A stretch of DNA of 64,000 nucleotides from Microbacterium salitolerans (GTDB lineage: Bacteria; Actinomycetota; Actinomycetes; Actinomycetales; Microbacteriaceae). How positions within the stretch are numbered: the first letter of the stretch is position 1; every line of letters starts with the position of its first letter. Below, one piece after another: positions 35,457 through 39,424 of this stretch. The stretch spans positions 496,001 through 560,000 of the forward strand of contig NZ_JAHKSH010000003.1 in NCBI RefSeq assembly GCF_019720895.1, given 5' to 3'. The notes under the pieces are model-generated. The model was not told the origin of the DNA, did not search any database, and saw only the letters and a list, made by a program, of their open reading frames with translations. Both the position numbers and the translations under genes were made by a program.

Positions 35457-35476
35457 CATACCGACCGCGCGGTATG
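35457..35476. promoter_or_regulatory. TetR-type operator, site B
   Basis: CATACCGACCGCGCGGTATG, second copy of the island palindrome, 31 nt upstream of the kinase-dehydrogenase-ligase genes. Confidence 0.8.
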
Positions 35477-35507
35477 CTCGTGGGTACCGACGGAAGGCGG
35501 GTCGACG

Positions 35508-36557
35508 ATGACCGATGTACCGGGCCTCGACTGCGCGGGGCTGAGTCAGTGGCTGACGCGCGCCCACCCGACGCTCGCGGCGGGCCCTCTCTCGGCGAGC
35601 GTGATCGCGGGCGGGCGCAGCAACCTCACCTACCGCATCGACGGCGCGGCGAGGCCCCTCGTGCTCCGCCGTCCACCACTCGGGCATGTGCTCTCGAGTG
35701 CCCACGATGTGCGCCGCGAGCACCGGGTCATCTCCGCGCTCGCCGGATCCGCCGTCCCGGTCCCGCCGACGATCGACGTCGTCGACGACACGGCGGCGAA
35801 CGAGGTCACCGGCACGCCGTTCTTCGTGATGGAGCTCGTCGAGGGAGCCGTGCTGTCTCAGCCCGAGCAGAACGCGGCCTTCACCGCCGACGGCCTGCAT
35901 GCGCTGGGGCGGCAGCTCGCCGAGATCCTCGCAGACCTGCACGCCGTGGCCCCCGCAGACGTCGGTCTCAGGGACTTCGGTCGTCCGGACGGCTACCTCG
36001 ACCGCCAGCTCTCGACGTGGCGGCGGCAGCTCGACGCGTCGCGGACGCGCCCGCTCGACCTGCTCGACGAGCTGCAGGACCGACTGGGGTCGACCCGCCC
36101 CGCAGGCAGCGACGTCGTGGGGATCGTGCACGGAGACTTCCGCCTCGACAACGTGCTCGTCGCGGGTCCGCCCCACCGCCCCCGCGTCGCCTCCGTGCTC
36201 GACTGGGAGATGGCGACGCTCGGCGATCCGCTCGTCGATCTCGGCATCCTCGGCCTGTACTGGGAGATCCGCGAGCTCGCCGGCGATCCCGTCAGCCAGA
36301 GCGCCGTCGTGCCCGGAGCCGGATATCCCTCCTTCGACGAACTCGTCGACGTCTACGCCGCGCGGACATCGCGCGCGATCGGGGACCTGTCCTGGTATCG
36401 GGCCTTTGCGTCGTACAAGCTGGCCGTGATCCTCGAGGGCATCCACTGCCGCTTCCTCTCCGGCGACACCGTCGGCGAGGGCTTCGATCTCATCGGCGAC
36501 CTCGTCCGGCCGCTCGCCGACGACGGGATCCGACACCTCTCGGCCGTGAGGAGCTGA
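35508..36557 (+). CDS. APH-family kinase (ACAD10/LvaA-like)
   Basis: 349 residues. Protein-kinase-like phosphotransferase of the aminoglycoside phosphotransferase family: GGRSNLTYRI (about 35-44) phosphate loop, VHGDFRLDNVLV (about 207-218) with catalytic Asp, and LDWEMATLGDPLVDLG (about 231-246) magnesium site. This subgroup is typically next to or fused with acyl-CoA dehydrogenases (ACAD10/ACAD11) and includes LvaA, which phosphorylates 4-hydroxyacyl-CoA in levulinate catabolism. An antibiotic-resistance role is unlikely. Three nt separate it from the following acyl-CoA dehydrogenase gene. Confidence 0.88.
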   Translation: MTDVPGLDCAGLSQWLTRAHPTLAAGPLSASVIAGGRSNLTYRIDGAARPLVLRRPPLGHVLSSAHDVRREHRVISALAGSAVPVPPTIDVVDDTAANEVTGTPFFVMELVEGAVLSQPEQNAAFTADGLHALGRQLAEILADLHAVAPADVGLRDFGRPDGYLDRQLSTWRRQLDASRTRPLDLLDELQDRLGSTRPAGSDVVGIVHGDFRLDNVLVAGPPHRPRVASVLDWEMATLGDPLVDLGILGLYWEIRELAGDPVSQSAVVPGAGYPSFDELVDVYAARTSRAIGDLSWYRAFASYKLAVILEGIHCRFLSGDTVGEGFDLIGDLVRPLADDGIRHLSAVRS

Positions 36558-36560
36558 CCG

Positions 36561-37763
36561 ATGGACTTCGCCACCGACCCCCGAACCGCCCACCTGTCGA
36601 CGCGGCTGCGCGCCTTCGTCGACGAGCGGGTGATTCCCGCCGAGAGAGTGCTCGCGACGCAGATCGCCGAAACGCCCGACGAGTGGTCGTTCCGCCCCGT
36701 CGTCCACGAGCTGCGTCAGGCGGCCCGTGCTGAGGGGCTCTGGAATCTCTTCCTGCCCGGCGAGGGAGGGGCAGGGCTCACGAACCTGCAGTACGCGCCG
36801 CTCGCCGAGATCACCGGCTGGAGCCCGCGCCTCGCGCCCGTCGTCGTCAACTGCGCCGCCCCCGACACCGGGAACATGGAGGTGCTCGCCGACTTCGGGT
36901 CGCCCGCGCAGAAGCGCGAATGGCTGGAGCCGCTGCTCGATGCGCGCATCCGCTCGGCGTTCTGCATGACGGAGCCCGATGCCGCCTCGTCCGACGCCTC
37001 CCAGATCGGCACGCGGATCCGTCGCGACGGATCCGACTACGTCATCACGGGGCGCAAATGGTGGTCGACCGGCGCCATGAGTCCGGATGCGCGTGTGCTG
37101 ATCGTCATGGGGAAGACGGATCCGGACGGTCCGCGGCACCGCCAGCAGTCGATGGTGATCGTGCCGCGCGACGCCGTCGGCGTGCGGATCATCCGGCCGC
37201 TGACGGTGTTCGGCTATGACGACCGCGACCACGGTGGCCATGCGGAGATCGTGTTCGACGATGTGCGCGTGCCGGCCGAGAACCTGATCGGCGATGAGGG
37301 CGACGGCTTCGCGATCGCCCAGGCCCGGCTCGGCCCCGGACGCATCCACCACTGCATGCGCGCCCTCGGCACGGCGGAGCGGGCCCTCGCCCTCGCGGGG
37401 GAGCGTGCGCGATCGCGGGCCCCGTTCGGGCGCCCGCTCGCGGAGCAGGGCGTCATCCGGGAGTGGGCCGCCGAGGCGCGCATCGAACTCGAGGCGCTGC
37501 GCCTGCTTGTGCTGAAGACCGCCTGGCTCATGGACACGGTCGGCAACCGACGCGCCATGACCGAGATCCAGGCGATCAAGATCGCCGTCCCCCGGGCCGC
37601 GCAGCGCATCATCGACCGCGTCATGCAGCTGTTCGGCGCGGCGGGCCTGTCGGCGGGTCAGCCGCTCGCCGAGATGTTCGCGGGCGTCCGCGCCCTGCGC
37701 ATCGCCGACGGGCCCGACGAGGTGCACCTCGCATCGCTCGGGAAGGCCGAGCTGCGCGCCTGA
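36561..37763 (+). CDS. Acyl-CoA dehydrogenase, ACAD10/11-like
   Basis: 400 residues. CMTEPDAASSDASQI (about 135-149), RARSRAPFGRPLAEQGV, and the C-terminal LRIADGPDEVHLASLGKAE that typifies the ACAD10/ACAD11 group rather than ordinary fatty acyl-CoA dehydrogenases. With the kinase immediately upstream it is expected to eliminate phosphate from a 4-phosphoacyl-CoA, giving an enoyl-CoA, as LvaC or ACAD11 do. That activity is inference from family and neighbourhood. Confidence 0.9.
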   Translation: MDFATDPRTAHLSTRLRAFVDERVIPAERVLATQIAETPDEWSFRPVVHELRQAARAEGLWNLFLPGEGGAGLTNLQYAPLAEITGWSPRLAPVVVNCAAPDTGNMEVLADFGSPAQKREWLEPLLDARIRSAFCMTEPDAASSDASQIGTRIRRDGSDYVITGRKWWSTGAMSPDARVLIVMGKTDPDGPRHRQQSMVIVPRDAVGVRIIRPLTVFGYDDRDHGGHAEIVFDDVRVPAENLIGDEGDGFAIAQARLGPGRIHHCMRALGTAERALALAGERARSRAPFGRPLAEQGVIREWAAEARIELEALRLLVLKTAWLMDTVGNRRAMTEIQAIKIAVPRAAQRIIDRVMQLFGAAGLSAGQPLAEMFAGVRALRIADGPDEVHLASLGKAELRA

Positions 37764-37831
37764 GACCGACCGTCACGGCGAGCGCCGTGGCGGGTGACAT
37801 CCCACTCGATGACGAGGAAAGAGGGCACACC

Positions 37832-39424
37832 ATGACCGATCACGCTGACGAGGCCGTCGATGGAGCCGGCTTCGGAACGCTGTCGATGGCGAGCATCCTG
37901 TCGGAGACGGCGCGGCGATCTCCCCACCGCACCGCCCTGCACTTCGCGGGCGCCACGACGACGTACGGGCAGCTGTGGGACGAGACGCGAGCGTACGCGG
38001 GTGCGCTGCGGGCGCGGGGAATCGGGCGCGGATCCCGCGTCGCGATGATCGTGCCCAACGTGCCCGACTTCCCGCGGGTCTACTACGCGGCGCTGGCGCT
38101 CGGCGCCGTCGTCGTGCCGGTCCACCTCCTGTTCAAGTCGGGCGAGATCGAGTTCGTGCTGCGCGACAGCGGCGCCGACGTCGTGGTCGTCGCAGCGCCC
38201 CTGCTCGCCGAGGCGGCACCCGCCGCGGAGGCGGCCGGCGTGCCCCTCGTCACGGTGCTGCTCCCCGCGCGCGGGGAGGGGATCCCGCCGCTCCCGCGCC
38301 TCGAGGCGGAGGCCGCGGCGGCCGATCCGATCGTGCGCCACGAGTCGGTGCTCCCCACCGACGCGGCGACGATCCTGTATACGAGCGGCACGACGGGGCG
38401 GCCCAAGGGAGCCGTGGGGTCCCACGTCGCGGGAGTCGAGCAGGTGCACTGCGCGCTCATCGACGCCTTCGACCTGCGCGCCGACGACGTCGTCTTCGGC
38501 GGGCTGCCGCTCTTTCACGCGTTCGGCCAGACGTCGGTTCTGAACACGGCGTTCCGCGTCGGCGCCTCGATCATCCTGCTGCCGAAGTTCGACCCCGACG
38601 ACGCGCTCGCGCTGCTCGTCGCGCACGGCGCGACCGTGTTCACCGCCGTGCCGACGATGTACGTGGGCATGCTCGAGGCTGCGCAGCACAGCACGGCACG
38701 GCCGCCCCTCCGCTACGCGATCTCCGGCGGCGCCGCGCTGCCGGGCGCGGTGCTCGAGGCATTCCATGAGGTGCTCGGCGCCGAGGTCCACGAGGGCTAC
38801 GGGCTCACCGAGACCTCGCCGACGGTGTCGTTCAACACCATCTACGAGCCGATCCGGCCCGGCACCGCCGGCCGCCCTCTCTGGGGTGTCGACGTCGCCG
38901 TCGCCGACCCGCACATCGACGACGAGGTGCATATCCTCGACGAGCCCGGTGCGTTCGGAGAGATCGTCGTGCGCGGGCACTGTCTCATGAAGGGGTACCT
39001 CGGCCGGCCCGATGCGTCGGCGGCGGCCGTGCAGAACGGCTGGTTCCGCACGGGTGATCTCGGCACGGTCGGCGAGCACGACGTCGTGACGATCATCGAC
39101 AGGAAGAAGGACATGATCCTCCGCAACGGGTACAACGTGTATCCGAACGAGGTCGAGGACGTGCTCGTGCGGCACCCCGACATCGCGAACGCGGCCGTGT
39201 TCGGCGTCGACGACGCCACGCACGGTCAGGAGGTCCACGCGGCCGTGGTCGCGTCGGCGGGGCGCGAGGTCGACGCCGACGAGGTCGTGGCGTTCGCGAG
39301 GGACCGCGTGGCCGCGTACAAGTATCCGCGTGTCGTCCACGTCGTCGACGAGCTGCCGCTCGGAGCGAGCGGCAAGGTCCTGAAGCGCGAGCTCCCGGCC
39401 ATGCTCGCGCCGCAGCGCGCCTGA
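37832..39424 (+). CDS. AMP-forming acyl-CoA synthetase
   Basis: 530 residues. ANL superfamily: ILYTSGTTGRPKGAV (about 180-194), YGLTETSPTVSFN (about 324-336), GWFRTGDLG and IIDRKKDMILRNGYNVYPNEVE (about 420-441), and catalytic Lys in GKVLKREL near the end. It activates a carboxylic acid to its CoA thioester, the entry step for the pathway of this island. It follows the dehydrogenase by 68 nt; GAGG ribosome site. Confidence 0.92.
   Translation: MTDHADEAVDGAGFGTLSMASILSETARRSPHRTALHFAGATTTYGQLWDETRAYAGALRARGIGRGSRVAMIVPNVPDFPRVYYAALALGAVVVPVHLLFKSGEIEFVLRDSGADVVVVAAPLLAEAAPAAEAAGVPLVTVLLPARGEGIPPLPRLEAEAAAADPIVRHESVLPTDAATILYTSGTTGRPKGAVGSHVAGVEQVHCALIDAFDLRADDVVFGGLPLFHAFGQTSVLNTAFRVGASIILLPKFDPDDALALLVAHGATVFTAVPTMYVGMLEAAQHSTARPPLRYAISGGAALPGAVLEAFHEVLGAEVHEGYGLTETSPTVSFNTIYEPIRPGTAGRPLWGVDVAVADPHIDDEVHILDEPGAFGEIVVRGHCLMKGYLGRPDASAAAVQNGWFRTGDLGTVGEHDVVTIIDRKKDMILRNGYNVYPNEVEDVLVRHPDIANAAVFGVDDATHGQEVHAAVVASAGREVDADEVVAFARDRVAAYKYPRVVHVVDELPLGASGKVLKRELPAMLAPQRA

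Follow-up and report, generated by a model that had tools for sequence, protein, structure and literature searches.

A candidate 4-hydroxyacyl-CoA kinase and an ACAD11-class dehydrogenase in a predicted four-operator catabolic regulon of Microbacterium salitolerans

Introduction

What would a kinase of the APH fold do between a repressor-type operator and genes of beta-oxidation? The question is raised by a 64,000-nucleotide stretch of the Microbacterium salitolerans genome (assembly GCF_019720895.1, contig NZ_JAHKSH010000003.1, positions 496,001 to 560,000; here called the window). At 35457-39424 the window contains a 20-bp palindrome followed by genes for an APH-family kinase, an acyl-CoA dehydrogenase (ACAD) and a CoA ligase, all on the plus strand. 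A preliminary description of this DNA likened these genes to the levulinate (lva) genes of Pseudomonas and to ACAD10 and ACAD11 of animals. In those systems, 4-hydroxyacyl-CoA is reported to be converted to 4-phosphoacyl-CoA and then to 2-enoyl-CoA (PMC12440821, PMC11342911, PMC6692424).

We found that the observation is real and that the chemistry is probable. New here are four operators, one ahead of each of four operons, within an island of 16.6 kb. We consider it probable that the island specifies 4-hydroxyacyl-CoA phosphorylation and elimination, and we read it as a regulon, induced by its substrate, for the catabolism of gamma-oxygenated carboxylic acids.

Results

The ACAD groups with ACAD11

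Judged by sequence, the ACAD groups with ACAD11 rather than with other ACADs. Compared with PDB chains, it scored 424, 422 and 422 bits with three ACAD11 sequences and 395 bits with 4hr3, whereas the first ordinary ACAD scored 129 bits. Residues reported to be peculiar to ACAD10/11 are the phosphate-holding R626, H634 and R637 and the catalytic D753, all of mouse ACAD11, together with P463 of human ACAD11, a proline that breaks a helix (PMC12440821, PMC11342911). The first four correspond to R256, H264, R267 and D383 of the window protein, and P463 corresponds by numbering to P93 (numbering in the ACAD11 PDB chains is that of the papers minus one throughout). The score difference and these kept residues place the protein in the ACAD11 class.

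The RIADGPDEVHL ending noted in the preliminary description is present, with ADGPDEVH beginning at residue 382. We looked for the same features in 80 related loci, which are the best among 589 confirmed stretches and together cover 1.607 Mb. In their three plus-strand frames, 75 loci have an exact match to the 12-residue helix motif and 78 have [AS]DGPDEVH. The proline was kept in all 80, as AP in 73 and GP in 7. A second dehydrogenase of the island, ACAD2, has none of the searched ACAD11 motifs. The window's genome contains one ACAD11-class protein; the next match is 30% identical.

The kinase groups with the ACAD11 kinase by sequence

By the same kind of comparison, the kinase falls in the ACAD11 kinase class with the catalytic Asp and Asn kept. 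It scored 177 bits with 3dxp and 147 bits with the ACAD11 kinase (8v3v), 35-36 bits with 25-hydroxy steroid kinase (25-HSK) and Rv3168, and 23-26 bits with peptide-antibiotic kinases. D210 and N215 correspond to the catalytic D220 and N225 of ACAD11 (D220 by numbering), and D210 aligns with a position occupied by Asp in 8v3v and by Ala in 8v3u. Fold comparison, used as an arbiter of kinase class, gave no decision.

Four operators lie within the island

The palindrome proposed earlier as a TetR-type operator, CATACCGACCGCGCGGTATG, lies at 35457-35476, and the kinase starts 31 bases further on. Its consensus, with up to 3 mismatches, had 6 matches in the window (3 places, both strands) against an expectation of 0.10, a number that none of 100 shuffles reached. 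A matrix built from these first three sites identified a fourth, at 44246. The four operators had matrix scores of 26-32; the next-best site in the window scored 6.9. Throughout the 3.46-Mb genome, the consensus with up to 2 mismatches occurred in three places, all inside the island. A limit of 3 mismatches brought in the fourth island site plus six further places (7 hits); a reversed-pattern control gave 5 hits.

The operator is also found ahead of the corresponding genes in relatives. A four-site matrix identified 124 sites in the 80 loci, compared to a mean of 0.64 (maximum 4) with 50 palindrome-preserving column shuffles. The gene found within 450 bp past the site was most often the kinase (40 sites), ABC ATPase 2 (28) or the short-chain dehydrogenase SDR3 (17), and rarely SDR1 (3), ACAD2 (3), TetR2 (1) or the ACAD (1). 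The remaining 31 of the 124 sites had no gene of the query set within that distance. With this matrix, sites were also found ahead of kinase and ATP-binding cassette (ABC) genes in a first set of 18 relatives' loci.

TetR2 is the best candidate for the repressor

Two regulators of the TetR family are encoded in the island: a TetR_C_36 protein beside the kinase gene, and TetR2 (46097-46675). We consider TetR2, not the regulator next to the kinase, the likely repressor at the four operators. The operator was present in 38 of 38 loci with TetR2 in view and in 17 of 42 without it (Fisher p 7e-10, which is only indicative because related genomes are not independent). It was also present in all 21 loci that had TetR2 but no TetR_C_36 in view, which makes TetR_C_36 the less likely repressor.

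The 17 operator-containing loci without TetR2 in view comprised 9 with TetR_C_36 and 8 with neither regulator. All nine loci with only TetR_C_36 carry the site. However, they cannot tell the two regulators apart, because in eight the stretch stops short of the expected place of TetR2, and in the ninth (L058), where the stretch is long enough, neither the importer nor TetR2 was seen. Of the 33 loci with neither regulator in view, 8 have the operator, which the proposed pairing leaves unexplained as far as the visible stretches go. The regulon is well supported by comparative evidence, and the operator distribution makes TetR2 the best candidate for its repressor.

Midway through the island (32249-35415), the TetR_C_36 gene and ACAD2-thiolase are transcribed divergently, with no TetR2 operator there. 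No operator precedes ACAD2-thiolase within the window. TetR_C_36 and ACAD2-thiolase may be a second, nested regulatory unit.

Gene content of the island

Genes were called from a list of open reading frames (ORFs) and with a coding-score gene caller, families were assigned with Pfam and NCBIfam, and nearest structures were taken from PDB chains (Table 1). Gene calls and Pfam agree that the kinase, ACAD and CoA ligase genes are consecutive; the APH (PF01636), Acyl-CoA_dh_1 and AMP-binding matches are all well over the Pfam cut-off. Kinase stop and ACAD start are separated by a 3-base gap. For the ligase, the coding-score caller favored a start at 37787 over the listed 37832. The hydratase, SDRs, thiolase, second ACAD and ABC importer described earlier are borne out by Pfam and NCBIfam. 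Read by eye, the island is flanked by genes for a molybdopterin oxidoreductase (27808-30060) and purM (47530-48669).

Table 1. Operators and genes of the island, in window coordinates
Feature	Position	Strand	Basis
Operator 1	30897..30916	.	Ahead of SDR1-MaoC; consensus match, up to 2 mismatches; one of 4 high-scoring places in the window
SDR1, FabG-like short-chain dehydrogenase	30956..31717	+	Pfam adh_short_C2, 195 bits
MaoC-type enoyl-CoA hydratase	31714..32196	+	Pfam MaoC_dehydratas; nearest solved Rv0130, 168 bits
Acetyl-CoA C-acetyltransferase (thiolase)	32249..33472	-	NF005890, 705.6 bits (cut-off 580)
ACAD2, acyl-CoA dehydrogenase without ACAD11 motifs	33484..34704	-	Pfam, NCBIfam, motif search
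TetR_C_36 family regulator	34795..35415	+	Pfam PF18598
Operator 2	35457..35476	.	Ahead of kinase-ACAD-ligase; consensus match
Candidate 4-hydroxyacyl-CoA kinase, APH fold, 349 aa	35508..36557	+	Pfam APH PF01636; D210, N215
Candidate 4-phosphoacyl-CoA phosphate-eliminating ACAD, 400 aa	36561..37763	+	Acyl-CoA_dh_1; R256, H264, R267, D383, P93
AMP-forming acyl-CoA ligase, 530 aa	37832..39424	+	Pfam AMP-binding, 294 bits; nearest solved FadD13
ABC importer substrate-binding protein	39481..40776	-	Nearest 4n03
ABC permease 1	40782..41861	-	BPD_transp_2
ABC permease 2	41858..42736	-	BPD_transp_2
ABC ATPase 1	42736..43491	-	ABC_tran
ABC ATPase 2	43488..44207	-	ABC_tran, BCA_ABC_TP_C
Operator 3	44246..44265	.	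Ahead of ABC operon; 3 mismatches, matrix score 25.9
SDR2	44306..45067	-	Nearest solved Rv2002 and 3-alpha,20-beta-hydroxysteroid dehydrogenase
Quinone-oxidoreductase-family reductase (QOR)	45081..46100	-	Family searches, nearest solved structure
TetR2	46097..46675	-	TetR_N and TetR_C_24
SDR3	46687..47427	-	Gene call, Pfam/NCBIfam scans
Operator 4	47436..47455	.	Ahead of SDR3-TetR2-QOR-SDR2; consensus match

Several of the accessory genes can be given candidate roles. The best NCBIfam models for SDR1 are FabG models, below cut-off, and we predict a 3-hydroxyacyl-CoA (or 4-oxoacyl-CoA) dehydrogenase. SDR2 best matched trans-4-hydroxycyclohexanecarboxylate dehydrogenase (252 bits, below the cut-off of 400) and is a candidate for oxo/hydroxy interconversion. 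QOR is a candidate enone reductase.

The five importer genes (39481-44207, minus strand) are of the branched-chain type. By sequence, the binding protein is most similar to 4n03 (78 bits, 25% identity), whose PDB title is fatty acid ABC transporter binding protein. Structural Z was 41.3 with 4n03 and 40.4 with 3lkb (a tie within 1), and Foldseek places 4kv7 above 4n03. The likeness to 4n03 is only a hint because identity is 25% and 4n03 is second to 4kv7 in Foldseek.

The module is patchy in the genus and common in the phylum

Among the genomes sampled, 26 of 149 in the genus and 19 of 199 in the family contain the ACAD (E <= 1e-60, own genome included); two of the 19 family matches are just 36-39% identical. 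In the phylum it was present in 136 of 396 sampled genomes (E <= 1e-100, own genome included). The module is thus not rare, being patchy across the genus and common across the phylum. In the open-licence literature searched, we found no paper on the regulon.

Comparison of gene order showed the kinase in 75 of the 80 loci, directly upstream of the ACAD in 74. SDR1 was present in 51, the set of kinase, ACAD, SDR1 and MaoC in 48, and the whole importer in 29. All sixteen island genes counted (TetR_C_36 was outside the count) were present in 16 loci, from Agromyces, Isoptericola, Krasilnikoviella, Microbacterium, Demequina, Cellulomonas, Glycomyces and Promicromonospora. Shorter versions occur in Streptomyces, Actinacidiphila and Amycolatopsis, several with the operator and TetR2. 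Kitasatospora loci had neither in view. An apparent fusion of binding protein, kinase and ACAD in L066 was dropped because the 1200-aa ORF covers the kinase in the wrong frame.

Some relatives have additional genes. Among L039-L077, a zinc alcohol dehydrogenase gene (26/80 loci) adjoins SDR1 where listed, and a 4HBT thioesterase gene (32/80) usually lies between TetR_C_36 and the kinase. Neither was found by tblastn in the window, including 30917-30955 and 35416-35507; a 63% identical alcohol dehydrogenase is encoded elsewhere in the genome. On a linear plasmid of Streptomyces cathayae (L120), kinase-ACAD lies between IS3-family transposase genes, which suggests that the module is mobile; the operator copies there are weaker (scores 18.4 and 18.6).

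Seven loci have a HAD-type phosphatase gene ahead of kinase-ACAD: L093, L109, L110 and L115, where it overlaps the kinase start by 4 bp, and L101, L103 and L119. The L115 HAD protein scored 87 bits with TIGR02247, below the cut-off of 125. ACAD10 joins HAD, kinase and ACAD domains in one protein (reported in PMC12440821, PMC11342911). The HAD-kinase-ACAD genes look like a bacterial split ACAD10 and could bear on the origin of ACAD10.

Four relatives have lactonase-family genes close to the module

Phosphotriesterase-family genes lie near the module in some relatives. The genomes of 41 of the 80 loci were searched, and 7 had a match. In three Amycolatopsis loci (L083, L088, L113) the gene and the ACAD are ~4-9 kb apart. 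L113 also has an operator (score 22.6) whose end is 16 bases from the start of an operon of ligase, phosphotriesterase-family gene and TetR2. A Tsukamurella plasmid carries, in one direction, genes for a thiolase, two SDRs, QOR, HAD, FabG, MaoC, kinase, ACAD, two further ACADs, a phosphotriesterase-family protein and CoA ligase, and continues with an alpha/beta hydrolase on the opposite strand and an MFS transporter. The Tsukamurella protein matches PF02126; its nearest structures are 4if2 and then 2vc5-type entries, which we take to be lactonase-type.

These neighbors suggest gamma-lactones or 4-hydroxy acids as substrates. The link is not general, because no PF02126 protein was found in the window's genome and because in Rhodococcus jostii and Gordonia the best phosphotriesterase-family match is not beside kinase-ACAD (stretches of 17.4 and 19.0 kb). 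This check of position covered the matches other than those in the L056 and L096 genomes and a second one in Gordonia.

We also tallied Pfam families among unassigned neighbors in distant relatives (L078-L118; 68 sequences, from 66 of 199 eligible ORFs plus two phosphotriesterase-family genes added by hand). The commonest was a PAF-acetylhydrolase-type hydrolase (PF03403; 4 of the 68 neighbor proteins), which may hydrolyze an ester or a lactone in the pathway.

Discussion

A proposed pathway

From gene content, family membership and conserved active-site residues we infer the following reactions and substrate. The importer would take up the acid, and the ligase would convert it to the CoA thioester. 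Reduction of a 4-oxo form by SDR2 or SDR3 would give the 4-hydroxy form, and the kinase would phosphorylate the 4-hydroxyl of the acyl-CoA. In the ACAD, D383 would take the alpha proton and the phosphate held by R256, H264 and R267 would be expelled, giving 2-enoyl-CoA without net oxidation. MaoC, SDR1 and thiolase would then finish one round of beta-oxidation. TetR2 would repress all four operons, including its own, until a ligand is present. That short or medium 4-hydroxy acids and gamma-lactones are the natural substrates is plausible, at a little under even chances.

Alternatives and known systems

One alternative is removal of a hydroxyl from a bulkier substrate, such as a terpenoid, a steroid side chain or a ring acid. 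The window kinase is ~20% identical to 25-HSK (9fsg, 9ft5) and scores 35 bits with it, versus 147 with the ACAD11 kinase. 25-HSK is not known to have an ACAD11-type partner. That enzyme is described as acting on the free steroid (PMC8449060), and no ring-degradation gene was recognized among the island genes scanned. We consider a bulky substrate unlikely.

A dedicated pathway for levulinate (4-oxopentanoate), as the actinobacterial counterpart of the lva operon, is also improbable in our view. Like the reported lvaABCDE cluster of Pseudomonas putida (PMC6692424), the island groups a kinase, an ACAD, SDRs and a CoA ligase; the SDRs and the AMP ligase are possible counterparts of LvaD and LvaE by family, not by sequence comparison. 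By the residues tested, the kinase and ACAD belong to the same enzyme class as LvaA-LvaC and ACAD10/11 and are predicted to work like them, and this part of the preliminary description stands. By the features tested, however, the island is not an lva operon. There is no lvaB between the kinase (stop 36557) and the ACAD (36561), although lvaB was not searched for in the rest of the genome and P. citronellolis is likewise reported to have none between lvaA and lvaC (PMC6692424). The lva regulator LvaR is of the sigma-54 type, whereas both regulators called in the island are TetR-family. The island adds a branched-chain-type ABC importer, a different kind of importer, as well as a hydratase and a thiolase. 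Nor does the module imply a C5 substrate, because ACAD11 is reported to act on C5 and C6, with a cavity that suggests longer chains (PMC12440821, PMC11342911). The lactonase-family neighbors in relatives suggest a broader range of gamma-hydroxy acids.

It is hardly credible that the APH-fold protein acts as a resistance or choline-type kinase placed here by chance: its best NCBIfam match, an aminoglycoside model (APH_3p), has 35 bits against a cut-off of 205, its gene accompanies that of the ACAD in 74 of 80 loci, and it stands under the same predicted operator control as beta-oxidation genes.

We return to 4-hydroxyacyl-CoA phosphorylation and elimination as the preferred chemistry. The window proteins fall into the kinase and ACAD classes of animal ACAD10 and ACAD11 and keep the catalytic and phosphate-binding residues reported for them (PMC12440821, PMC11342911). 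In contrast to the animal proteins, the window kinase and ACAD are two adjacent, separate genes, flanked by a bacterial importer, a ligase and TetR operators.

The gamma-lactone genes of Rhodococcus erythropolis offer a second bacterial comparison. They are reported as qsdR (TetR), qsdA, qsdC (ligase) and qsdD (MFS) (PMC6476934, PMC6262395, PMC4640858, PMC3689677). QsdA is described as a phosphotriesterase-like lactonase, and the later steps are given as beta- or omega-oxidation (PMC6262395, PMC3689677, PMC4640858). The terms "phosphotransferase" and "acyl-CoA dehydrogenase" are absent from the main text of these three papers. Like qsd as reported (PMC6476934, PMC6262395, PMC4640858, PMC3689677), the island is an actinobacterial catabolic system with an acyl-CoA ligase and predicted TetR repression, and a qsdA-family gene lies near the module in the three Amycolatopsis loci and on the Tsukamurella plasmid. 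It differs in that the window's genome has no such protein.

We tentatively propose that the TetR2 regulon, across several orders of Actinomycetota, is for catabolism of 4-hydroxy acids and gamma-lactones, and that the kinase and ACAD may fill the open step of the rhodococcal gamma-lactone (quorum-quenching) pathway. Lactonase and ligase would yield 4-hydroxyacyl-CoA, and phosphorylation and phosphate elimination would lead it into beta-oxidation.

Significance

The ACAD10/11 chemistry of animals was reported just in 2024-2025. Here its predicted counterpart occurs with operators, an importer and follow-on enzymes in culturable bacteria, and other genomes can be searched for the regulon by means of its 20-bp operator. 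If the proposal is true, TetR2 and its ligand would be a handle for sensing levulinate- or lactone-like biomass compounds, and the kinase and ACAD would be proposed enzymes for the step past lactone opening in actinobacterial use of gamma-lactones.

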